In this document: piece by piece, positions 41,300 to 61,582 of the stretch | Numbering within the stretch: position 1 is the first letter of the stretch | Layout: every line of letters starts with the position of its first letter | Assembly (NCBI RefSeq): GCF_910596095.1 | Contig: NC_056538.1 | Span: 9,294,001-9,358,000, forward strand | Direction: 5' to 3' | DNA from: Thunnus maccoyii | Lineage: Eukaryota > Chordata > Actinopteri > Scombriformes > Scombridae | DNA length: 64,000 nucleotides | Translations under genes and position numbers: made by a program | Notes under the pieces: generated by a model | What the model saw: the letters and a program-made list of their open reading frames with translations, nothing else | Told to the model about the DNA's origin: nothing | Database searches by the model: none

Positions 41300-41360
41300 C
41301 CTCCATGCAGAAAATGACCATCCAGGCTATCCATAGGTCCGAGTTATGAAACTTCACCAT
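41300..41360 (-). CDS. First coding exon of a secreted or membrane protein, unrecognised
   Basis: On the - strand an ATG in good Kozak context (ACC ATG G, 41,358-41,360) opens a 61-nt exon ending at GTAAGT. It reads MVKFHNSDLWIAWMVIFCME plus one base (phase 1). Residues 9-18 are strongly hydrophobic (LWIAWMVIFC) after a short polar N-terminus, as in a signal peptide. Signal-peptide exons followed by a very long first intron are typical of neuronal cell-surface genes. I found no second exon in the 41 kb to the left, so the gene may continue outside the window. The region 41.36-42.0 kb is less AT-rich and would be its 5' UTR and promoter. SEZ6 lies in the same human region as TP53I13, but the exon is too short to support that or any other name. 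Confidence 0.55.
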
Positions 41361-46503: not shown

Positions 46504-48240
46504 TCAGTTCTGAAATGACAAAAAGGACAATGCTGTTACTGCAGAAAGAAAACATGATTTATTAAAGAACTTCTTGAGGGCCACAGCTCCTGTCATGAAT
46601 GTATGAATCTTTCTGGCAGCAACATAAACACCAAGATGACATTCATTTTTGGAGCAGGAATATTACGGAGGCGAGTCAGGCTATGACAGGTCTGTGTTCA
46701 CTTCTGGGGAGGCAATTAGACAGAACAGCTCTTATATGACTCTTATCTGACCTGTTTCTCTCCTCTCCCACCCTGGGCTGGGTTCTTTCCTCTTTTGCTT
46801 CAGTCATTTGCATGGAAAACCTATTATTCATACCAATGTGACTAACAAAACTGCACCAAAATGAAAGCAATGTAGCCTAAAAGTGATAAGAGCAAAAGTT
46901 GCTCAAGATAAAAATAAATCTGCAGATAAGGAAGATGGTCACCTGACAACAAAAGAGGAGTAGTGAACGTATGAATGAAGACAGCTTGTACACAGGTGGG
47001 TGTGTCGCAGCTGATTACAACTGGCACTGCTGGTAAGACCTGTTTTGGATCTTTCACACGCACCGGGTGACGAGCAACGAGCCCGTGATAAGTAACCTTT
47101 GAAACGGGGTGTGACTGGGGTGTTACCTGTTGAGCTGCATTTTATTGCATTTTGCTGTTAAATGTATTGTGAACTACAAACGGAGGAATGTTGGAACATT
47201 TTTACACACTGAGCAGTGAGCAGTGATAGAGGTCAGTCCTTGGGTGTACTTGTTCACTAGAGTAAAACTGTTTTATATCAAATAAAATATCTCTAATAGT
47301 GCAATAGTACAATACCTCATCACTGCTGGAGGATGAAGATGAGGATGAGCTGCTTGATTTATGTCCATCCTTCTTTTCCTTATTCTTCTTGTCCTTCTTC
47401 TTCTTATGCTCTTTGTGCTCATCTGACTTGTTCTTACTGCCAGACTTATGCTTACTGTCAGACTTGTCCTTCTTGTCAGACTTCTCGTGACTGTGAGACT
47501 TGTCCTTACTGCCGGACTTGTCCTTACCGTCCTAAAAAAAAAAAAAGGCAAAAAAGTTCAGATGCAGTAAATTTACCAGAGAAGCAACTTTTCAATATCC
47601 CCTTCCAGTAATGTGCCCTGGCGAGACCCACTAGTGTCACTGCCAAAAAGCAGCTAAAAGCATAGATTTATATATAAAAAAACACACTTTTCTAAATTCT
47701 ATTTCTCAGTAGCTGGAAAAGCTCTTAGCATATTTGTTACAACGCACACAAACAGTGCAAAGCCTCCCTACCTTATCCTTGTCCTTGCTCCATGGCCAAT
47801 TAAACTCATCCTTATGAGCTTCCTCCTTCTTCACTGCACCTTCATCTTTACCCAAAGCTGCAAGCAAGCAAAAGAGACAGATGGTGAGCAGGCTTAGAAG
47901 AAAAGTGATATAAAAATCTGAATTACTTTCACCAAGAAAAGAAACGTCTAAACACTGCAATATATCAAGTAAATACACCTTGCTGGGTCTGTTTACACTG
48001 ATGCAATTTGTCACTGTTTTTCTTGTGTATATATTTGAATAATTAAGCTGTCAGGTGTAAAACTTCCCTCTAAAAAGCCTGTTGCTCGCTACTTGGAAAC
48101 ATGTTTACTACATAAATCAGCCGACCCACGTCGACTCACACTTACGGGATTAATGTTTAATACTCACTAATGAAACCAAAGCTTGTCTGTGCGCCTGTCC
48201 AAACAAGTGACCGCAGAGATTGACAGGCTGCTTTTTTCAC
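46504..48240 (-). CDS. Small Lys/Ser/Asp-rich protein gene, start not found
   Basis: Exons on the - strand: 48,168 upward (first, 5' limit unknown), 47,772-47,857, 47,316-47,531 and 46,504-46,509 (last codon plus TGA). Acceptors are good and the phases agree. The second exon ends NWPWSKDKDK. The third is 72 residues of KDKS/SGSK repeats (DGKDKSGSKDKSHSHEK at its start), a lysine-rich part and a serine run ending SSDE. The protein would finish SSDEN. Upstream of exon 2 the matching frame reads WTGAQTSFGFIT and stays open to an in-frame stop without any ATG, so the true first exon is missing, or an upstream or non-AUG start is used. If the 47,316 donor is not used, the frame reads on about 40 codons into the intron. 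It shares composition, though not the exon module, with the large gene next to it. It is probably intracellular and disordered; its function is unknown. Confidence 0.5.
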
Positions 48241-48819: not shown

Positions 48820-49182
48820 CAGTGGTGGAAGTACACAGTTGAGATACTTGCACTTTACTTGAGTGTTTCCTTTATACTTTTTAACTTTTACAGATGAAGA
48901 TTTTACACACAAAACATGAGTTTATTTTATAGAACATTTCCCACTGCTCAAAACTACCCAACAGTATATAAAATAGGCTAGTTAAAATTAGCTCCATTTA
49001 CTTACAGCATCAGCAATAATAATCCAGTAATATATGATAGTGTAACAATCACAGGGTCCATTGTTCTGAATTATGAGTAGCTACTTCTACTTTAGATAGT
49101 TTAAGTACAGGACAGAGTATTTTTATATTTCAGTATTTCTACTTTCACTCACGAAAAGGATACGGATACTTCCTTCACCACC
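48820..49182. mobile_element. hAT-like MITE, diverged copy
   Basis: It starts CAGTGGTGGAAGTAC and ends CTTCCTTCACCACC. Inside are ACTTTACTTGAGTGTTTCC and ACAGATGAAGATTTTACACA, collinear with the element at 59,856-60,757 but without the nested insert. Target duplications are no longer clear. Confidence 0.75.
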
Positions 49183-49484
49183 ATATATACACCATATATA
49201 TTATATATATATATATATTACATATATTATATTTAACTCAATAATGACATCAGGATTGTGACTTCTCATTCGTCTTTGCTGGTTCAGGGAGACCTTGTTC
49301 CATATTTTGTTTTGAGTACACACAAGCATTAATCCTCTGCCTTTCTAGGTGTGAAAAGATGTGTTGGACCTTTTCAGTAAAGCCCCAACTGTATTATGAA
49401 AGTAATAATAAACCTGCTGCCATCAATGTAAATTTACACAAAATTATAAAAAAGACTACTTCATACTACAACTAATACTACCTC

Positions 49485-49777: not shown

Positions 49778-49783
49778 TTTATT
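49778..49783 (-). terminator. Candidate polyadenylation signal of the modular gene
   Basis: AATAAA on the - strand about 157 nt past the stop codon at 49,940; this would give a short 3' UTR. Confidence 0.4.
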
Positions 49784-49939: not shown

Positions 49940-52900
49940 TCATTGATAAGGCTTGGGGCCTCTTAGTAGATCACTAGAGGTGAGGTTGGAAGTGGAACGG
50001 GTGCTTCCGTCTCCGTATCTCCTTGGGTTCCCAATCAAGGACTCCATGGGGCTGGGAGGTCTGCGAATCCTGTCTACCATACTCAGTGAGGAGCCAGAAT
50101 AAGAGTGCCTGGAGACAGCCGAAGAACTCAGAGGATCCGGCTTCAGGACAGGCTTAGAGACAGCCGAAGAACTTAGAGGATCCGGCTTCAGGACAGGCTT
50201 AGAGACAGCTGAAGGACTCAGAGGATCCGGCTTCGTGACAGGCTTAGAGACAGCTGAAGAACTCTGAGAATCCAGGTTCAGGAGGGGCTTAGAGGGAAGT
50301 GGTGCAAAGGGAGCGCCACCAGGCTTGGAGCTGCTGCCACCGGATGCTGAAAGTTCGCTACCACCTGAGCCTGAAACCTGCATTTTTGGCTCACCGCTTT
50401 CCTCACCATCAGGGCTTCCCTGGAATGAAATCAACACCACCACCCCACATGAAGGATACAGCAAATATAGCCTGAGCCAAGAACGAATAACAGCTTATAT
50501 GTCGTATATAATTTATATTTAAAGCAAACTCACAGTCTGCTTCTTCTTCTTCTTGTCAGTTTCACTTCCAGATGAGCCCGAACCCTGAGGAGCAGGGAAC
50601 CAGTAAGATTCAGTCACTTACAGTATATGAAACATAATCTGATGATATTTCCATTTTTTTAAATTTACCTTCTTCTTCTTCTTCTTCTTCTTGTCTTTCT
50701 TATCCTTTTTGTTTTCCTTGTCGCTGTCACTGGAGCTATCAGATGAACTTGATGAACTGGAGCTTGAGTCCTGATCAAATACAAAGCATACAACAGTTGA
50801 TCATCTCTCTTTTTGTAAAACAAAAGATGAGCATTATACACCCACTGAATTACCTTCTTTTTGTCCTTCTTCTTTTTCTTCTTCTTGTCTTTCTTCTTCT
50901 TTTTCTTCTTCTTGTCATCATCACTGCTAGAAGAATCTGAATCCTTAGATGTAAATAAATACATTTTGTTAGTGTATTGCTGTTTTTTTTCATGAAGAGA
51001 CATCCCATCTGAATATACATAGGAAATGGCACTAACAAATATTAAGAAGCAGGAGGCTGCTTTACAATTGCTTTACCTTCTTCTTGTCTTTCTTTTTCTT
51101 CTTCTTCTTGTCCTTTTTCTTCTTCTTTTTCTTCTTCTTATCATCATCACAAGAAGAATCACTGGAGGAGTCAGAAGAAGAAGAATCCTGGACAGAAAAA
51201 AGATAACATGTCATATTTAACTTATACAGTAGTAATTACACCATAGTAACGTTAATGTTATAGATACTGTTGTGCTTGTTTGCTCATCACACCACCTCGT
51301 GCATGCTGACATTGTGATTCAGTTGTTTCGCTCTACATATTCAGACATTTACTGAAGATCAACAACAGTAAGTTTTTCCAAGAAATTTCACATAGAAAGA
51401 GTTGTCAGGCTGCTTTATTCTCATGTTCCACATGTTTCAGCATTTTGGAGTTTGTGTTTTGAAACCTTTCTGGAACATATTTGTTGATTTTCAGGAGGTA
51501 AAATCCTGACATGTAAAACATGAAGGGACCTCATATTTAAGCTTTGTCTCACCTTCTTTTTCTTCTTCTTCTTATCCTTCTTCTTCTTCTTTTTCTTATC
51601 TTTCTTTTTCTTCTTTTTCTAAATAAAAAAACACACAGACTCATGATAAAATTGTGCATTCACTGTATTTGTTGATTTTGTAAACATCTGAAGTAGTGAA
51701 CATTATATTCATGTGTGTGTCATCTCACCTTGTCATCATCACTAGAAGAGGAGCTATCATCAGAGGAGCAGGGCTTCTAGAAAAGACATCAGTCAGTCAG
51801 TCACAGAAACCAACAGGAATCTTTATGACTTTCAGGGGCATTAATCCTCTAAAACAATACCATCATAGAACAGTGGAAAGTGAACCATGTTTACTCAACA
51901 GCATGTTAAAACAATGTTTTATTTTTCACCTTCTTCTTCTTCTTCTTCTGCTTCTTCTTCTTCTTCTTTTTCTTCTTGTCATCTTCACTATCAGATGAGG
52001 AGGAGGAGGAGGAAGAGGAGGAAGAGCTGGAATCCTGTAAAGAGATGAGAACAGTGTAATATTAACACAAAACACAAATGAACCAACCAAAAAAAGGACA
52101 CATACAAAAATTAGGATTATATAGAGGAAGACAAACCTTATCCTTCTTCTTCGTCTTCTTCTTCTTCTTCTTCTTTTTCTTCTTCTTTTTCTTCTTCTTG
52201 TCATCTTCACTATCAGATGAGGAAGAGGAGGAGGAGGATGAGGAGGAAGAGCTGGAATCCTGTAAAGAGATGAGAACAGTGTAATATTAACACAAAACAC
52301 AAATGAACCAACCAAAAAAAGGACACATACAAAAATTAGGATTATATAGAGGAAGACAAACCTTATCCTTCTTCTTCGTCTTCTTCTTCTTCTTCTTTTT
52401 CTTCTTCTTTTTCTTCTTCTTGTCATCTTCACTATCAGATGAGGAAGAGGAGGAGGAGGATGAGGAGGAGGAGGAGGAAGAGCTGGAATCCTGTAAAGAC
52501 AGAAAGACGAGAACAACGTATTAACACAATACACAACCAAACATACAAAAAAGGAACATACAGAAGAAGACAAACCTTATCCTTCTTCTTCATCTTCTTC
52601 TTCTTCTTTTTCTTCTTCTTCTTTTTCTTCTTCTCATCTTCACTGTCTGAGGAGGAGCTATCAGAGGATGATGAAGAGGAGGAGCTGGAGGAGTCCTATA
52701 GATCAAATCAAACACAAATATCCACATTGATATCTACAAACATCCCACTTCAGTTAGAGATATTTACACCTATGAGTAATTCAGTTTTCAAATCACCCAA
52801 AACTGCACACAGAAGCACATTTTTTGTATCTGTTTTATACTAATATACTAAATTTAATGTGCAATATAAAAATGTCAACATACATATTGTATGTACAGCA

Positions 52901-55900
52901 CTCTTTTCACTATCATCATGATGTACACATAGTCTGTCTGTATACCTTTTCCTTCTTCTTCTTTTTCTTCTTCTTGTCTTTTTTGTCATCATCACTATCT
53001 GAACATGAGCAAGAATCCTGCTGAGAAAAAAAAGGGAGTAAAAAAAAGTCACGGTGAATTTGGACTATTCTGTAACACAGACATTACCAACCACTATGCA
53101 GCAAATGTTGCATCAGTACACTGTGGTAATAATGAACTATAACAAAAGTGATGGTCATTAAAAAAAGCTACATTCTTCAACAACATTTTGTTTAGAGACA
53201 TTCTCTTTTTATCACTGCGTACACATGGTGATCACCTTTTTCTTCTTCTTCAACTTCTTCTTCTTGTCCTTCTCCTCCCCTCCTTCTCCCTCATCATCAC
53301 TTAAGTGGCCTTCCTCCAGACCGTCATGGAACGCCTCTGCTTTGCTCTGTTGTTACGACAAAAGAAAGCAATGATTCATCTGTGCATTTGTTGCATATAT
53401 TTGTGCGATATGCAAAAAGTGTGTGTCTGAGTATTTCACCTTGTCGGCATCTTTAGCTTTCTTTTTATCTCCATCAGCACTTGATCCTGCAATCTCACCA
53501 TCTGCAGAAAAGGAGAAATCCAAGAGATACTACATCAACCTCGTGAACAGGTTTGGTTTTGACGATGTCATTTGTAATTCAGTCTCTTTCAATCACCAAA
53601 AAGTGGAAACACTCACCAGCTGCTGAAAGAGCAGCACCACTGCTGATCTCCTCCTGCTCCTCATCCTGTGAAAAAGCACAAACACAATCAATCGTCTTTT
53701 ATTTCCCCTACAAATCTCCATACAAACCTTTATACAATAAATGCACACACACACACACACACACACACATACAGGCATGTGGAAAGATCTTTCCATCCTC
53801 TTACAGGTCCTGACAGGCACAAGAGCTACACATTTTCTCAGGAGGTATGCACTATTCACAAATCTGGTTTGTTCTTTATTAAAAGCACAACAAAAACAAG
53901 CTTCTCCACAGTTGTGAATTAAGAAATGGAGAGTTTCTGCCTTATATTGTTCATATTTTTTGCATCATATTTTTTGCATAACATAGTACAAACTAAGCCA
54001 CCTGCAGGCAGAGAACAAAGAAACTTGACTCAGCATTCCTACAATAAGTGGAATACCTTGAGAGGGTCACATGATGAAGAGCCTCGCCCCTGACCTGAAA
54101 ACCTACTACATAATTTAGAGGCCGTAGGCTTTTTAAAAAAAACAAGGAGGGGAATTTTTTTACCTTTTTCTCATCCTTCTTCTTCTTCTTCTTCTTTTTC
54201 TTATCCTTCTTCTTCTTCTTTTTCTTTTTATCTTCGTCACTGTCAGAAGATGATGATGATGATGATGATGAAGATGAAGAGCTGGAATCCTGTGTCAATA
54301 AAAAATGTTTTTATCTTTAGTGAAAATGTACAAATTACATATTAGTGATCTGCTGAACCCTCCCAGTCTTAATGTACATAGTAAATAACAGGCTGCTTTG
54401 GACAAATGACAAAACATCTTCATTGTTTTACCTTTTTCTTGTTTTTCTTTTTCTTCTTCTTCTTGTCCTTCTTCTTCTTTTTCTTTTTCTTCTTGTCATC
54501 ATCGCTGTCAGAAGAAGATGAAGAAGAGCTATCTGAGGAAGAGGAGCTGGAGTCCTGTGAAAGAAAAAGAAACAATACAATCAACACTTTTGGCCATTTA
54601 CATTTAAACAGGGAACAGTCAAACCAAACAGATGACACCCAAGATATCCACAATATTGTAACTACATAGTATTAAATAAACTGATTTTTTAATCATACCT
54701 TCTTCTTTTTCTTCTTCTTCTTCTTCTTCTTTTCATCTTCACTGTCAGAGGATGAACTATCAGATGAGGAAGAACAGGAATCCTGGGAAGTAGAGGTAGA
54801 TGTTCAGTAACAGATGAGTGTTTTATGTTTTATTGTTTTCATTACATGTATGGTTTAATGACATGTGCTGGTCCTTTAAGACAGTTAGTTATCGTTGTAT
54901 AATCTGCTGCATTATAGGCAAATTTGAAATACCTTCTTCTTCTTCTTCTTCGTCTTCTTTTTCTTCTTCTTCTTCTTCTTCTTGTCCTTCTTCTTCTTCT
55001 TCTTTTTCTCTTTCTTCTTGTCATCCTCCTCATCTGATGAGTCGAGACCCTGAGGCTGGCAAAATGAAAAATGCAAGAAGAGGAGAGAAATTCTGTAATG
55101 TGATATGATATGATTCTTTATGGATTACAGACATTAGCAAATCCAAGGTATAACACATTGAAGTGAAATTTATTTCAAACATGGCCCCAGTTGTAAGTTC
55201 AACAGCCACAGCATTCGACTTCTCTCTCACCTGGCTCAAACTCTGTCCCTCTGCAGACGGCTCTTCCATTTGGCCTTCGGTACCTGAAAACATTAAATGC
55301 ATTCAAATGTAAAACACAAGTATGAATTGCATGTATTGACAACAAATTCTGCAGATTATTGTTCATGGTAATTCTGCTGACTTTACCAATGAATACAGCC
55401 AAACACAGGGCTTTATAAATATTGGAAATATGTGCAGATTACAACTGCTGCAATTTGACTGGCAACCCATTTGACTGGCAACCCTTCTCTTCTCTGTGTC
55501 ACCATATACTTCAATTGTCAGTCCATTATGATGAAGACATGAGTGAATCTGAAAGATCTGGATGAACTGGAGGTTTCAACTCAATTCTGCCAAAGTGCCC
55601 TTCAGCAAGATATCGACTTTAAATGTCAAAATTGGCCTCACTCTCAAATACAGACCGCAACTATTCAGACTGTACGTTAACTGGCTATTGAATTATACTT
55701 GCAGAGTTCTCTAAGGAGAAGATGGAGAATAATATTCTAAGTGAAACAAAAGCAGACAAGATGAAGTTCTTCAGTTTCTTGCAAACAACCTTAGAAACGC
55801 TTTTTCAAGTTTTTGCAATACAAGCATACTTGCAAACAAAGTCACTTTGGGCGGAACTGTGATATGCAACACACGCTTTTGTAAAAGAGAATACACAGAG

Positions 55901-58900
55901 CTGAGACACACATTCATCTCATGAGACTTGATATAAGCAGTCATCTGAATACATAAAACTATGTTGCAGAACGTTGCAAAGGGGAAATTCTGTATTTCAC
56001 TTACCAGACTGATATATGATGACATTGTCCCAGACGTACTCCTTCTCCTCTTCCTTTTTCTTCTTCTTCTTCTTCTTCTTCTTCTTGTCATCCTGCAAGG
56101 GAATGTTGACTCTGTCATAACTATAGGTTGTGTTTTAGTGTTGTTTTTTTAATTGTTGTACTATAATGTGTGTGTGTGCTTGTTTGTGAAGCTTGTTGAT
56201 GAATTGATTTATATTTGCTTAATAAAAAATCATGATACAGTCATAGTTGGGTGTCACCCACTAGTTATACATGAAGAATTGTCTATCTTCACCGCGTTTA
56301 GATAACAAACATCCACACCCACTGTGACCAAGAAGCCAAAACCAACACACAGCAAATGACATGCACAGACTGTGCATATTACACACCAACTGGCTGCATG
56401 GCCATACACTACTACTACTGCTGTGTAACGATGCATGTAAGCACGCACACACCCCCATACCTGCACACACATATTTCTGAGGCGTTCCCATTCTCCCCAA
56501 AACAGCTACAAAAATCACATCTGAGTGTAGTGTCATGACTTGCTGTGGTTGACACAACAGGCATGTCAAGCATATGACTGGGTGTGTTCCTCTCCTGTCA
56601 GATATCTCCTGCTATCAGATCTACATGTGCCTCCGCCTAGTACTCAGGCTGAATCGCACGGCAGTGTAATGGACTCCTACCTTCAAAGGCTCTGATCTTG
56701 TGATTTTTTTCACCTTAATACTTTACAACCAATCACTCCTATCAGAAGAGAACTAGTGGGTAAAAACTCAGCTCTGAGGTTTCTTTGAACTGATTTTTTT
56801 CTTTTCTTTTAGTCTTTTGTCTTAAAAGCTTGCAACAGCTGAGCCGCTTGCCTTTCCCGCACCTCCTGATTTTCAGCCCACGCCTTCAGAAAATGAGTAA
56901 GACATCAAGTCATCGTGTGATTGCAGCTACTTGAAGCGGAACCTTACTAAGCTAGGCAAAAAGGTGAAAGTAGTGCATGCCCCATTTGGTATTTGAGTGC
57001 TCTTGTTGATGTTGCAGACTTGGTGGAGAGTTGACGGGCTTATCCCCGACTTGCCAAAAGACTATAATGAATACTCAGTTTTTAGATTTCACTCAATTTG
57101 AAAGAAATCCCACCCTAAATATTCTCTTAACATACTGTATTGTCAGCTCTGACAAACTCTTATATCCTCACTTGAGGCAGCGACATAGTTGGAAAGGACT
57201 ATCAGTCCCCTATGAGCTGATGTGAAACTGTTTGTGCTTGTGGCCAAGGACTTAATTTAGCACCGCCGCGGGAAAGATTTCTCAAGGATTAACATAAACA
57301 AAACTGTAACACCATCAGATTTACACTCTCTTTCACTCCTTTGAGATATTTTGGCTTCAGCTGAAAAAATATGACTTCTGAGCTCTTTGGTGTTGAAAGG
57401 TATGTAATTGCGTAACCTATGCCATAACTAGACTTACCTCACTGTCACTGCCTGAAGAGCTACTGGAGGAAGAAGAGGAGGAAGAGGAGGAGGAAGAGGA
57501 GGATGAAGAAGAGGATGATGAGGATGATGAGCTGGAATCCTGTTGAGAAAGAGGTTAGGGAAGTTATTGCTCAACATTGTGTACACTTTGGACAGATTTA
57601 TTTATACCCTCCTTTGTTGGCGAAAGTGATAAATGAGTCTAAATGAATGAGTCACCATTAACACACTGGAATAGGGCTTTGTCACAGACGCTTAGAGAGA
57701 GGAGTGTGGCTGGCAGCAGAAGGGAGGGGCGTTCTAAGCCCTCGGCGACACACAAAGGGAATTATATGAGAAACCATTTTACCGAGAAGGCACACGGAGG
57801 CACACACACGCCCATCACAGCTATGCCGTGAGCCACTCGAACCTATTGAGAAAGTGATCATTTCATTCCTAGTCCTCTCCTGTTTGACTGGCTGTTGCTT
57901 GGTGCAGCACTTCCTTCCTCTGTCTGTGAGGACTGTGCAACTCTCTGAGTGTAGTTTCTAATCAGGGCAACACCCGCTAAAAACCACAGGATTGACTGAC
58001 CATCTAATAAGGTGTAATATTTTACTAGACATGCTGCGGAGACTGTACTCAATAATGGTACAGTAAAAGCAGAATCAAGTGTCAATCAAGAAATTAGTTT
58101 AACTCCATAACAAACTTCAAGCCATTTAAGATTCTCTTGGTACAGCGGAGACATTATTTCCCTTTAAGCTGACAGTAACTGTTTTGTTAATATTTGTATT
58201 TAGGCACTTTGCTGTTCAGGTTAGTAGTGATTAGTAGTTGGTTAGTTTTGAAGATAAGATTAAAACACATACCTTCTTCTTCTTCTTCTTCTTCTTCAGC
58301 TTCTTCTTCTTCTTCTCTTTCTTGCCGATACCTTCATCCTCACTGTCCGAGGAGGACGGAGAGCTGTCAAGTGAGTACACCACCTTGTGAAAGACAAAAA
58401 TAAAAAACCGACATTATTTCCGGTGTCCCTCAAAATCTTTAGAACATCTGGTGGGAATGAATACACACAAACAGAGCTGATATGCATTACAGTAACACTT
58501 AATGTTCTTTACTTTAATGCAGATGCATGAATATCTGGTTATAAAGTATTATGGGTCGCTGCTCTTCACCTTGTTGCAAAAGATTATTCTGTGTGCTTTA
58601 AACGTGTCCCTTACTCACCTGTATATGTCCTGCTCCTGCTGGGTGTCCAGGTTGACTCTTGTCTCCCTCCACCTTTCCCAGGTCGGCAGGCTCTGCCACC
58701 TCAGCAAGGGGCTGCAAACCACCCTGAGGGGCTGCTACTGGGTGCACCACACCTGCAGCTCCACCTGGAGCTACACAGTTCAGGTTGACAGGATTAGAGA
58801 TGTTCTGAAGACAGGCACCAATACCTACCTCTCTTTACATTTAAAATCCTTAGAAAGACCTAGCTAATGAACCATCAGAATATGCAAATTTCACAGAGGG

Positions 58901-61582
58901 TTAGCAACCTGTTTCTATGATGCTGGTTGTACCATAACAGCAGAGGGAATGATGGCACTTCCTTATTCTTTCACTTCCTTAAATGGAGTGCCAGTTTCAA
59001 ATAGAGGACTAAATATCAAACATAAGGGCCTAAATCAATAAAATGGTTCCTGCAAATTGAGGACTATCTACTGCCCTTTGCTATAAATCCAATGAATTGC
59101 TTAACTATTACAATAATTCAGCAAAGTGCCACACCTCTAACAGCAGAAGGGGTCTGCTTTGTGTAAATAGGCTATCTCAGTATATAAAACAGTAATAAAC
59201 AGGTAATTTGTTTCCTTCCTGAAACAACTACTGTCTCTCTCTTAAAAGAGAAACAAGCCAAAATTTCATCAAACTATAAACAAAGCAAACTGCTGAATAA
59301 ATCATAGCCAAAAAGAAAGCAAACCTTTGTGGAGTGTGGACTCCATTTAGGTCCAGACTTCTCCTCTGTCCAGGGACCTAGGTCTCCTCTGACAGACTCA
59401 CCCGTACAGTTTTATGACAAGGTGTGCGTATGTGGGGAGAGTGATATGGGAGGGGGAAACAGGGATTGTGCCAAATTAAAAGAGACTTCTCCTCAAAAGT
59501 TTCAAAATAAAACCCACTATGAAATATTTTATTTAGCATTGCAAAAAAAATCAACCCAATATATATTTTATGTACCAAGTCCGATGATTTCATTCATATG
59601 TACCATCTGTGTGCACAACAACTGACAGATTGTAGGCCTGCATTTTTTATTTGGCAGACTATTTTTATAGAGTTTCTTTTATTTTGAAAGCAACACCAGG
59701 TGTTATCCTGGCTGTTGTAGACTGGCAGGTTTACCTGTGCTAACAGGTAAGGCCTGTTTCAATGCCTGTGGTGAGAGGATAGTAGCTATTCACACTATCT
59801 GCCCCAGGACAAAACCAGGAGGTAAGTTTTACTATAGAAACAGGTCTGTGGTACCCAGTGGTGGAAAGTAACTAAGTGCATCTACTCAAGTACTGTACTT
59901 AAGTAGAATTTTGAGGTATTTGTACTTTACTTGAGTATTTCCATTTGATGCTATTTTATACTTCCACTCCACTACATTTCAGAGAGAAGTATTGTACTTT
60001 CTACTCCACTACATTTATTTGACAGCTTTGTTTACTTTTCAGATGAAGATTTGACACAATGGATAATACAACAACTTTTTAAAATACAACACATTGTTAA
60101 AGATGAAACCAGTGGTTTCCAACCTTTTTGGCTTTTGATGTCTTACAAAAAGCAGTGTGTAGTTGGGTCACATTTCAGATGTCTGTGAGTTGTTAACAGC
60201 ATCACCAAATAGTGATTTTTCCCTCTAAACTTCTCACATGGTTTCATTTCAATAAATGTTCAAATGATCCAATATTTCACCAAAAATCAAAGATTAGAGA
60301 AAAAGTCTAAAAACTGAAAACAGATTTGTGTTTCAAAACTTTGTTTTTTCTTCTCTCCCATTAATCATGTAACGATCCCTCAGATTTATCTGGTGACCCT
60401 TTGGAGGGGCCCAACCCCTAGGTTGGGAACCACTGGACTAAACTAGCTAACTGTATATAAAGTAGTTCAAACTAGCTCCACCTCCAGCAGCTACAACAGT
60501 AACATGCTGCTCTAACACTGATGCTTCAATATTAATAATCTAATGATGTCATATATAAAAATATATCAGTCAGAGGGACCAAACCACTACTTTTACTGCA
60601 ATACTTTAACTAGCCTACATCAAGTTGATAATAGTTAAGTTACTTTTACTTAAGTAGGATTTTTCATGCAGGACTTTTACTTGTAATGGAGTATTTTTAC
60701 ACTACTGTATTAGTACTTTTACTTAAGCAAAGGATCTGAATACCTCTTCCACCACAGATGGTACCATTACAATTTTGTACGCACGAATTAATTATTATTA
60801 AGAGATTTATCCGTGATACCTACCGCACAAAACTTGTTTGTCCTTAGTTTGGAGCAGCGCATTACTGAGTTTGAACTAAGTCGCAGATAGGAAACTTTTT
60901 CCTTTTTCCATTAGTTTGTAGTAATCAAATAAACAAGAACACACGCATCATGAATCATGAACACTGATTTAAATAGACTAATGTTTTGTCGCCTCCCAGA
61001 GGATATTCAGGGTTAAAACCATGGACCACATAGGTCAAACGTCTATAGTTTGTTCCCTTCCAGCTTCCGTAGTTCTACAGCTTGTAAAGTTAACTGAGAT
61101 CACAAGAGAGCCAGCGGAACTCCGGAAAAGCAATTTGCTTTCTAAATAAAAGTATGAACATCACTAGCTTAATTCAAAACAGAAAACAACACCGGAGTAC
61201 ACTGAACTATAGGGTGTAAAATACTTAGCTGACTCATTCTATATAGATACATAGAAGAAGATCTAGTTAGTTTATGAAGTTTCAACTTCATAATCTAGTT
61301 AATGAAGTTATGATACAATGGCCTTATTTTGAAGATCCTAGGGGAAACGGTATCTTTCAATAATGTCGGCTGCTTGTCCGCAGTTTATCAAACGTTGCAT
61401 AGCGAAGTAATGTTGAGAGGACACTTTGTAATATATTTTCTGCGTGATAATTGGAAGATTTTCAATCTTTAGTTTAACGTTATAATGTAGAACAGTTAGC
61501 TAACGTTAGCTTAAGTTACCTCAAAGAAGAAACCGGACTGTCTGCGGGGTGTGACGGTTACCTTTTTAACCGACATTTGCAT
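49940..61582 (-). CDS. Modular Asp/Ser-Lys repeat protein, 25 coding exons, unrecognised
   Basis: Exons in transcript order: 61520-61582, 58619-58804, 58273-58383, 57438-57539, 56005-56092, 55231-55283, 54933-55049, 54699-54782, 54432-54554, 54164-54289, 53617-53665, 53440-53501, 53236-53346, 52946-53017, 52576-52695, 52362-52490, 52137-52259, 51930-52034, 51729-51776, 51553-51618, 51077-51187, 50854-50943, 50669-50770, 50534-50584, 49940-50419. All have AG/GT borders and compatible phases (2,772 nt; 923 residues). The N-terminus is MQMSVKKVTVTPRRQSGFFF (RRQS fits a basophilic kinase site) with an in-frame stop upstream. Residues 22-83 are Pro/Ala/Gly-rich. Residues 84-764 are modules of acidic serine then lysine, interrupted by short acidic exons (EYVWDNVIIYQS at 172-183). 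Residues 765-923 are Ser/Pro-rich and end LLRGPKPYQ. There is no signal peptide or membrane segment. A disordered, CK2-phosphorylatable nuclear or nucleolar protein (Nopp140-like in style only) is my inference. Small exons may be missed. Confidence 0.75.
50114..50283 (-). repeat. Coding 45-bp minisatellite in the last exon
   Basis: Three and a half tandem 45-bp units begin at about 50,114, 50,159, 50,204 and 50,249. On the - strand they encode KPVLKPDPLSSSAVS-type 15-residue repeats (variants KPVTKPDPLSPSAVS and a degenerate first unit). The reading frame is preserved, so unit-number changes would alter protein length without a frameshift. Confidence 0.85.
52035..52490 (-). repeat. Recent tandem duplication of an exon-intron unit (about 225 bp)
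   Basis: The unit 52,035-52,259 is repeated at 52,260-52,490. The intron parts (52,035-52,136 and 52,260-52,361) are identical over about 102 nt. The exons differ mainly by a few triplets in the GAG/GAA and CTT tracts. A third, clearly diverged copy follows at 52,491-52,695: its intron still shares ACAAACCTTATCC and AAGAC blocks. Confidence 0.9.
53743..53771. repeat. (CA)n microsatellite
   Basis: About 14 CA units within an intron of the modular gene. Confidence 0.95.
56100..57430. other. Long intron of the modular gene
   Basis: I see no further module exon in this 1.3-kb intron. Open frames here are short and lack splice context; a small CA-rich run lies at about 56,441-56,470. Confidence 0.5.
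59856..60757. mobile_element. hAT-like MITE with 8-bp target duplication
   Basis: The termini are CAGTGGTGGAAAGTAACTAA on the left and CTTCCACCACAG on the right. The flanks are GTGGTACC (59,848-59,855) and ATGGTACC (60,758-60,765), an 8-bp duplication with one mismatch, the hAT hallmark. The subterminal regions are full of ACTTTTACTTAAGT/ACTTAAGTA motifs. It has no coding capacity. A second element is inserted inside; without it this one is about 570 bp. Confidence 0.85.
60110..60435. mobile_element. Second hAT-like MITE nested in the first
   Basis: The terminal inverted repeats are CAGTGGTTTCCAACC and GGTTGGGAACCACTG. The flanks GATGAAAC (60,102-60,109) and GACTAAAC (60,436-60,443) match at 6 of 8 positions, as expected for an old 8-bp target duplication. 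The element is 326 bp and non-coding. Confidence 0.8.

Follow-up and report, generated by a model that had tools for sequence, protein, structure and literature searches.

A predicted gene of repeated serine-then-lysine exons in Thunnus maccoyii and its candidate charge-block protein

Structure of the Ser-Lys gene

The window analyzed here is a 64,000-nucleotide stretch of the Thunnus maccoyii genome (bases 9294001-9358000 of contig 6; our whole-genome searches covered the 782-Mb, 54-contig assembly), and on its minus strand it contains a gene of 25 exons, here called the Ser-Lys gene, in which repeated modules encode first a serine tract and then a lysine tract (Table 1). A preliminary description of this DNA had proposed a minus-strand chain of 25 exons with consistent phases and a phase-0 design. 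We rebuilt that gene by picking exons by eye on the minus strand and then joining them (model B), and the chain was recovered in full from 61582 to 49940, with GT-AG borders at 24 of 24 introns and a single open frame whose lone stop lies at its end. The predicted protein has 926 residues, in place of the 923 given previously, and the phase-0 design holds for 22 of the 24 introns, introns 5 and 11 being in phase 1.

On the evidence of the sequence, we conclude that this chain is one real protein-coding gene. On the minus strand of the region, all 24 runs of at least six AAR codons are exonic and read in the model frame, as are 15 of the 17 runs of at least four Ser codons, the remaining two lying in introns. 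In 14 of the 15 exons with a long Lys run, the donor is the first GT past the last run and is in phase 0 (the exception is exon 5). At least seven of nine consensus positions were matched by 23 of the 24 donors compared with 6.2% of the 746 GT sites in the region, and mean pyrimidine content before the acceptors was 0.74 compared with 0.40 for 963 AG sites. These splice-site scores are not blind because the exons were initially chosen by eye; the frame test and the first-GT test are less sensitive to that choice. Given the agreement of frame, donors and phases over 25 exons, we do not favor an origin of the span in two unrelated genes or in unspliced repeat DNA. Of the 400-bp windows between 48 and 64 kb, moreover, the eight whose CpG observed-to-expected ratio is highest are found at 48.0-48.6 and 60.6-62.0 kb, and none falls within exons 2-25.

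Two first exons can be joined to exon 2. Translation from ATG 61582 gives model B, and translation from ATG 59346 gives an alternative of 901 residues (model A). The upstream start is the better supported and 59346 the less likely, because a CpG peak lies at the former (ratios of 0.97, 0.87 and 0.70 in 400-bp windows from 61200, 61400 and 61600, the first two being the top values between 48 and 64 kb), because ATG 61582 stands head to head with, and 164 bp from, the ATG of an opposite-strand neighbor that we, like the preliminary description, take to be tp53i13, and because the ratio is only 0.17 at 59250-59500 around the model A start. Above ATG 61582 the frame continues without a stop for at least 20 codons, and the actual start may therefore be further upstream. 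Past the stop, the AATAAA listed in Table 1 is weak evidence for the 3′ end, since 11 further copies occur inside the gene span.

Table 1. Coordinates of the model B exons and of associated features in the window
Feature	Position	Strand	Remark
Exon 1, ATG 61582, MQMSVKKVTVTPRRQSGFFFE	61520..61582	-	CpG peak, joined frame
Alternative first exon, model A, MESTLHKA, less likely	59325..59346	-	CpG observed-to-expected ratio 0.17 at 59250-59500
Exon 2, non-repetitive N-terminal part	58619..58804 (58619-58770 in model A)	-	Single copy in genome
Exon 3, first Ser/acidic-then-Lys module	58273..58383	-
Exon 4, Ser half of split module, 28 consecutive Ser	57438..57539	-
Exon 5, Lys half of split module plus EEEKEYVWDNVIIYQSG	56005..56092	-
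Exon 6, non-repetitive	55231..55283	-
Exon 7, weak Ser/acidic-then-Lys module	54933..55055	-
Exon 8, module	54699..54782	-
Exon 9, module	54432..54554	-
Exon 10, module	54164..54289	-
Exon 11, non-repetitive, DEEQEEISSGAALSAAD	53617..53665	-
Exon 12, non-repetitive	53440..53501	-
Exon 13, acidic then Lys, no Ser tract	53236..53346	-	No Pfam match
Exon 14, module, QDSCSCSDSDDDKKDK...	52946..53020	-
Exon 15, module, older copy of 16/17 unit	52576..52695	-	Intron 15 vs 16/17, 76-84%
Exon 16, module, recent duplicate	52362..52490	-	Introns 16 and 17 identical over 102 bp
Exon 17, module, recent duplicate	52137..52259	-	0 substitutions vs exon 16
Exon 18, module, 95% identical to exons 16/17	51930..52034	-
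Exon 19, Ser half of second split module	51729..51776	-
Exon 20, Lys half of second split module	51553..51618	-
Exon 21, module	51077..51187	-
Exon 22, module	50854..50943	-
Exon 23, module	50669..50770	-
Exon 24, weak module, GSGSSGSETDKKKKKQT	50534..50584	-
Exon 25, non-repetitive C-terminal 159 residues and stop	49940..50419	-	Single copy; minisatellite inside
Candidate poly(A) signal AATAAA	49565..49570	-	~370 bases past stop; second starts at 49783
Exons of downstream Lys/Ser-rich frame	47772-47857, 47316-47531, 46504-46509	-	First coding exon not found

Module architecture and lysine codons

Each unit reads, in order, Asp, a serine tract, an acidic cap (for example SDSEDD) and a lysine tract, with longest runs of 28 Ser and 15 Lys. 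About fifteen Ser-then-Lys exons had been counted previously, which is somewhat overstated: 12 exons hold a clear Ser tract and a clear Lys tract together, all 12 of them in phase 0-0, exons 7 and 24 do so weakly, and exon 13 encodes acid and Lys with no serine tract. Two further modules are each cut by an intron at the Ser-Lys border, in exon pairs 4/5 (56005-57539) and 19/20 (51553-51776), and since their Ser and Lys halves lie in separate exons, skipping one half would alter the charge of the protein and not its length alone. An Asp-Ser-Ser start, formerly ascribed to nearly every exon, is present in nine of 25 (Asp-Ser in 11), and exon 14 begins Gln-Asp-Ser. Of the serine tracts listed, 18 in all, three lie in exon 25 and each of the other 15 is followed by a Lys run; an acidic cap separates Ser tract from Lys run in 15 of 15 cases, that of exon 24 (ETD) being weak. 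The composition of the whole protein is 31% Lys and 25.5% Ser (236 residues), with 104 Asp and 48 Glu (5.2%).

The repeat region (residues 88-766) contains no arginine among 679 residues. Differences from AAG within the Lys tracts number 28, 6 and 63 at codon positions 1, 2 and 3, respectively; 41 of the 63 third-position differences are AAA and the remainder lie in Asp, Glu and Asn codons, such that AAA is used 41 times in these tracts and AGA or AGG never. Exon by exon, AAA occurs in 17 and AGR in none of the 18 exons among exons 3-24 that have at least five Lys codons (sign test over exons, 1.5e-5, a rough guide given that these exons arose as copies of each other and that the two transitions may differ in frequency). 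Six AGA/AGG codons are found in exon 25, outside the repeats. The complete lack of Arg while AAA is common in the Lys tracts suggests selection for lysine itself, beyond positive charge.

Growth by exon duplication

Growth of the gene by exon duplication, as put forward in the preliminary description, is supported directly for the exon 15-17 cluster. Introns 16 and 17 show no difference over their 102 bp, exons 16 and 17 differ by gaps only (0 substitutions in 120 aligned bases), intron 15 is 76-84% similar to introns 16 and 17, and exon 18 differs from exons 16/17 by five substitutions in 105 aligned bases. The identity of introns 16 and 17 implies a recent exon duplication, although the 225-bp unit could conceivably be an assembly duplicate. 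Apart from this cluster, the only intron-intron similarity (E 0.01, low-complexity filter on) was a 14-bp match between introns 19 and 20; because the other introns barely align, we infer the older duplications elsewhere in the gene from the exons only. The same protein also contains an internal repeat of another kind, encoded by a 45-bp minisatellite inside exon 25 (50112-50294, 4.1 copies, 89% alike) and reading like SAVSKPVLKPDPLSS.

Growth of this kind might be neutral, with AAG/TCN repeats and exon duplication inflating a tolerated filler and function residing in the ends. Two introns that are 100% identical, hence recent growth, and tract lengths that differ among copies are what this explanation would lead one to expect. 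It leaves unaccounted for, however, the exclusion of Arg from all 679 positions despite common AAA, the mixture of all six Ser codons in the Ser tracts together with pure AAG runs of at most nine codons, and the presence of an acidic cap in every one of the 15 modules listed, and we therefore judge neutral growth of the repeats to be unlikely.

A different explanation places the function at the level of splicing, in which the Lys tracts would serve chiefly as (GAA)n enhancers and optional symmetric exons would yield many isoforms. GAAGAA occurs at 49 per kb in exons compared with 0.34 per kb in introns, the clear module exons are uniformly in phase 0-0, and the top Tra2-beta hexamer is reported as AGAAGA (PMC3240583). 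The GAAGAA excess is suggestive only, as it arises largely because lysine is written as AAG, and a splicing device fails to explain the Ser tracts, the acidic caps and the common frame of all 24 Lys runs; we regard it as improbable. AGAAGA repeats could nonetheless account for the retention of duplicated exons in the message. With considerable doubt, we raise the possibility that Lys tracts written in AAG act as (GAA)n enhancers so that copied phase 0-0 exons are included, each adding a charge block. The valency of the protein, the recognition of its exons and their duplication would in that case strengthen one another and give rise, perhaps in a single fish lineage, to a CK2-switched charge-block scaffold consisting almost entirely of serine, acid and lysine.

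Relation to known proteins

To place the protein among known families, the Pfam scan covered residues 1-105, the C-terminal 159 residues and, between them, two inner stretches as well as exons 5 and 13. Neither residues 1-105 nor the last 159 residues gave a Pfam match up to E 1, LisH included for the former; NCBIfam, a prokaryote library whose silence says little, matched neither end, and no solved structure was matched by the last 60 residues. Each non-repetitive end occurs only once in this genome, with next matches at E of at least 0.9. The earlier remark that the ends matched nothing familiar agrees with the Pfam and NCBIfam results.

The closest comparison is with Nopp140/NOLC1, whose likeness had been noted with the caveat that its basic blocks are rich in Lys, Pro and Ala, and both the likeness and the caveat were borne out by comparison of linkers with the nolc1 of this genome. 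The only SRP40_C (PF05022) match in the genome lies on contig 14 (C14:20608501-20618500), at the nolc1 locus, where near-identical acidic-serine and K/P/A repeats occupy one 464-residue open stretch, with single-module open stretches upstream; a 431-residue part of that stretch was used for the comparison. Many acidic-serine and basic blocks alternate in both proteins, but the basic blocks of the Ser-Lys gene are mostly Lys: its non-acidic segments contain 65.5% K, 0.7% P and 2.6% A, whereas those of nolc1 contain 18.4, 19.8 and 40.6%, respectively. An N-terminal LisH motif is a feature of NOLC1, and neither LisH nor SRP40_C was matched at the ends of the Ser-Lys gene. Identity as NOLC1 was rejected on the end domains, on the linkers and on the position of nolc1 on another contig. 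Given the SRP40_C match on contig 14 and the different linkers, the Ser-Lys gene is separate and at most works like Nopp140.

Treacle/TCOF1 is described as alternating acidic-serine tracts with basic linkers in its central repeat domain, but its tracts are Ser/Glu-rich and it carries LisH and a C-terminal lysine-rich signal (PMC11996177), none of which was found here. The Treacle profile PF03546 matched nothing in the whole genome and was likewise silent in control genomes; identity as Treacle was rejected on the end domains, within the parts scanned by Pfam. In the Ki-67 repeat domain, phosphorylation is likewise expected to make alternating charge blocks, with an average block of ~30-40 residues (PMC9106583) compared with runs of up to 28 Ser and 15 Lys in the Ser-Lys protein. 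POLR1F, POLR1G and TOP1, which pair K-blocks with E-rich regions, share Lys blocks spaced by acidic stretches (PMC10936679), while the acid of the Ser-Lys protein is mostly Asp and stands with Ser, its blocks are far more numerous, and its scanned parts contain no domain. The PASK-cluster proteins Nsr1 and Top1 are similarly dense in D/E/S/K, but the Top1 PASK is one region, and in the Ser-Lys protein such windows span two thirds of the chain. SR/RS nuclear-speckle proteins are defined by Arg-Ser dipeptides, and membership of this class was rejected on the lack of any Arg in residues 88-766. No published account of this gene was found by title or by the start of the abstract in the one open-licence library searched.

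A candidate phosphorylation-switched scaffold

The mechanism that we propose starts from features displayed by the predicted gene, namely its exon structure, recent duplication, composition, absence of Arg and the position of the acidic caps. By analogy with Nopp140 and Treacle, and apparently without membership of either family, we think the chances about even that the protein is a disordered nuclear or nucleolar scaffold with alternating charge blocks switched by CK2. We infer that it is nuclear, and probably nucleolar, and that it would be disordered, phosphorylated and able to condense. The middle of the gene would grow through duplication of symmetric phase-0 exons, with each exon corresponding to one functional unit. 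CK2 requires an acid at +3, and the acidic cap C-terminal to each Ser tract would allow the kinase to start there and to run back along the serines. The unphosphorylated chain would be net positive with few blocks, and the phosphorylated chain would alternate many times between negative and positive blocks, which could bind each other and other polyelectrolytes, leading to condensation. Module number would set the valency, and exon copy number would tune the scaffold.

The switch in charge was modelled with the rule S/T-x-x-D/E, in which phosphoserine counts as an acid; the rule includes no kinetics and gives an upper limit. It marks 183 of the 248 Ser/Thr residues, and this modelled phosphorylation would turn a net charge of +147 into one of -219 and give 23 alternating blocks where there had been 8. 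Relative to 100 shuffles, charge segregation would rise from +16.9 standard deviations before phosphorylation to +44.9 after it. Alternating charge blockiness is reported to drive phase separation of Ki-67 and NPM1 (PMC9106583), and Treacle condensates are described as stabilized by alternating charge blocks and nucleated by the K-rich tract of the protein (PMC11996177). Entry of RPA43 into the nucleolus is reported to need at least two of its K-rich low-complexity regions, and TCOF, with many E-rich regions of this kind, is presented as a scaffold (PMC9470157); K-blocks are also reported to favor nucleolar partitioning (PMC10936679). Acidic serine stretches primed by CK2 are found to be pyrophosphorylated, NOLC1 and TCOF1 most of all (PMC11427299).

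Several points weigh against such a scaffold. In the grammar described so far, K-blocks go together with Glu-rich regions (PMC10936679), and the acid here is mostly Asp, with Glu at 5.2%. Many of the modelled blocks fall short of the 30-40 residues of a typical charge block, and Treacle, nucleolin and Nopp140 are reported to become less blocky on mitotic phosphorylation (PMC9106583). The model gives a phosphoprotein whose net charge is strongly negative, the last 159 residues contain no Lys run that would be a counterpart to the C-terminal lysine-rich nucleolar signal of Treacle, and the tracts could have been lengthened by trinucleotide repeats without selection.

The Lys tracts may alternatively form a hub for lysine modification, in which they would be PASK clusters bearing or binding inorganic polyphosphate, sites of poly-hydroxylation by JMJD6, or both, with self-association not the point. 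PASK-type windows (20 residues, at least 75% D/E/S/K plus a Lys) cover 620 of the 926 residues compared with 219 of 431 in the nolc1 open stretch, and Lys is kept while Arg is excluded, as lysine-specific chemistry would require. PASK regions are reported as targets of polyphosphate, including nucleolar polyphosphate (PMC7008358, PMC11294840, PMC8345927), the modification of Top1 is described as needing an acidic setting (PMC7008358), and JMJD6 is reported to hydroxylate Lys runs of disordered regions linked to condensates (PMC9371714). The serine tracts of the Ser-Lys gene would be left unexplained by such a hub, however, because mutation of Ser in the Top1 PASK region is reported to have no effect on polyphosphorylation (PMC7008358). 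A modification hub is compatible with a charge-block scaffold and not opposed to it; as the explanation of the protein, we consider it unlikely.

Long acidic-serine tracts also suit secretory-pathway kinases, and a secreted acidic phosphoprotein of mineralized tissue of the starmaker/SCPP type was therefore considered. SCPP and starmaker proteins carry a signal peptide. By hydropathy, the only measure used, the N-terminus of neither model contains a hydrophobic stretch (best 15-residue mean of 0.83-0.86 in the first 40 residues), and the net charge before phosphorylation is +147; this candidate was rejected on the N-terminus, and we hold it to be very improbable.

If the CK2-switched charge-block scaffold is correct, the protein would be a near-bare natural block polyampholyte consisting of two block types in ~15 copies, mostly one exon each, with Lys and no Arg. 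It would offer a test in a living animal of whether condensation is set by nothing more than the number of charge blocks and their phosphorylation state under CK2. It would also indicate that a Nopp140/Treacle-like architecture can re-arise from unrelated ends through exon duplication. Zebrafish are described as normally having no fibrillar center, one that overexpression of Treacle can create (PMC10936679), and a fish protein with this architecture would be directly relevant to that question.

Neighboring genes and other features of the window

The long open stretch that we label tp53i13 gave just one Pfam match, which was sub-threshold and unrelated. The next gene, on the minus strand, has a GIT1_C Pfam match (E 1.6e-12), and in human TP53I13 and GIT1 are also adjacent. 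Human ABHD15 lies head to head with TP53I13, and the ABHD15 position was considered for the Ser-Lys gene; no Pfam domain was found in the scanned parts of the gene. At 41300-41360 on the minus strand, a start resembling a signal peptide, MVKFHNSDLWIAWMVIFCMEG, precedes a donor; neither inspection by eye nor a simple CUB/sushi pattern revealed a following exon in the rest of the window.

Downstream of the Ser-Lys gene and in the same orientation lies a second, short Lys/Ser-rich frame (46504-47857, minus strand) that reads LGKDEG...KDKDKDGKDKSGSKDKSHSHEK...HKSSSSSSSSSSSSDEN. A separate rise in CpG accompanies it at 48.0-48.6 kb. The frame occurs once in the genome and gave a sub-threshold SR-25 Pfam match (E 0.02). 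Finally, similar stretches flank the Ser-Lys gene at 59860-60745 and 48840-49190; both contain CAAGTAAAGT and end near TTCCACCACTG, and by eye they look like copies of one interspersed repeat.

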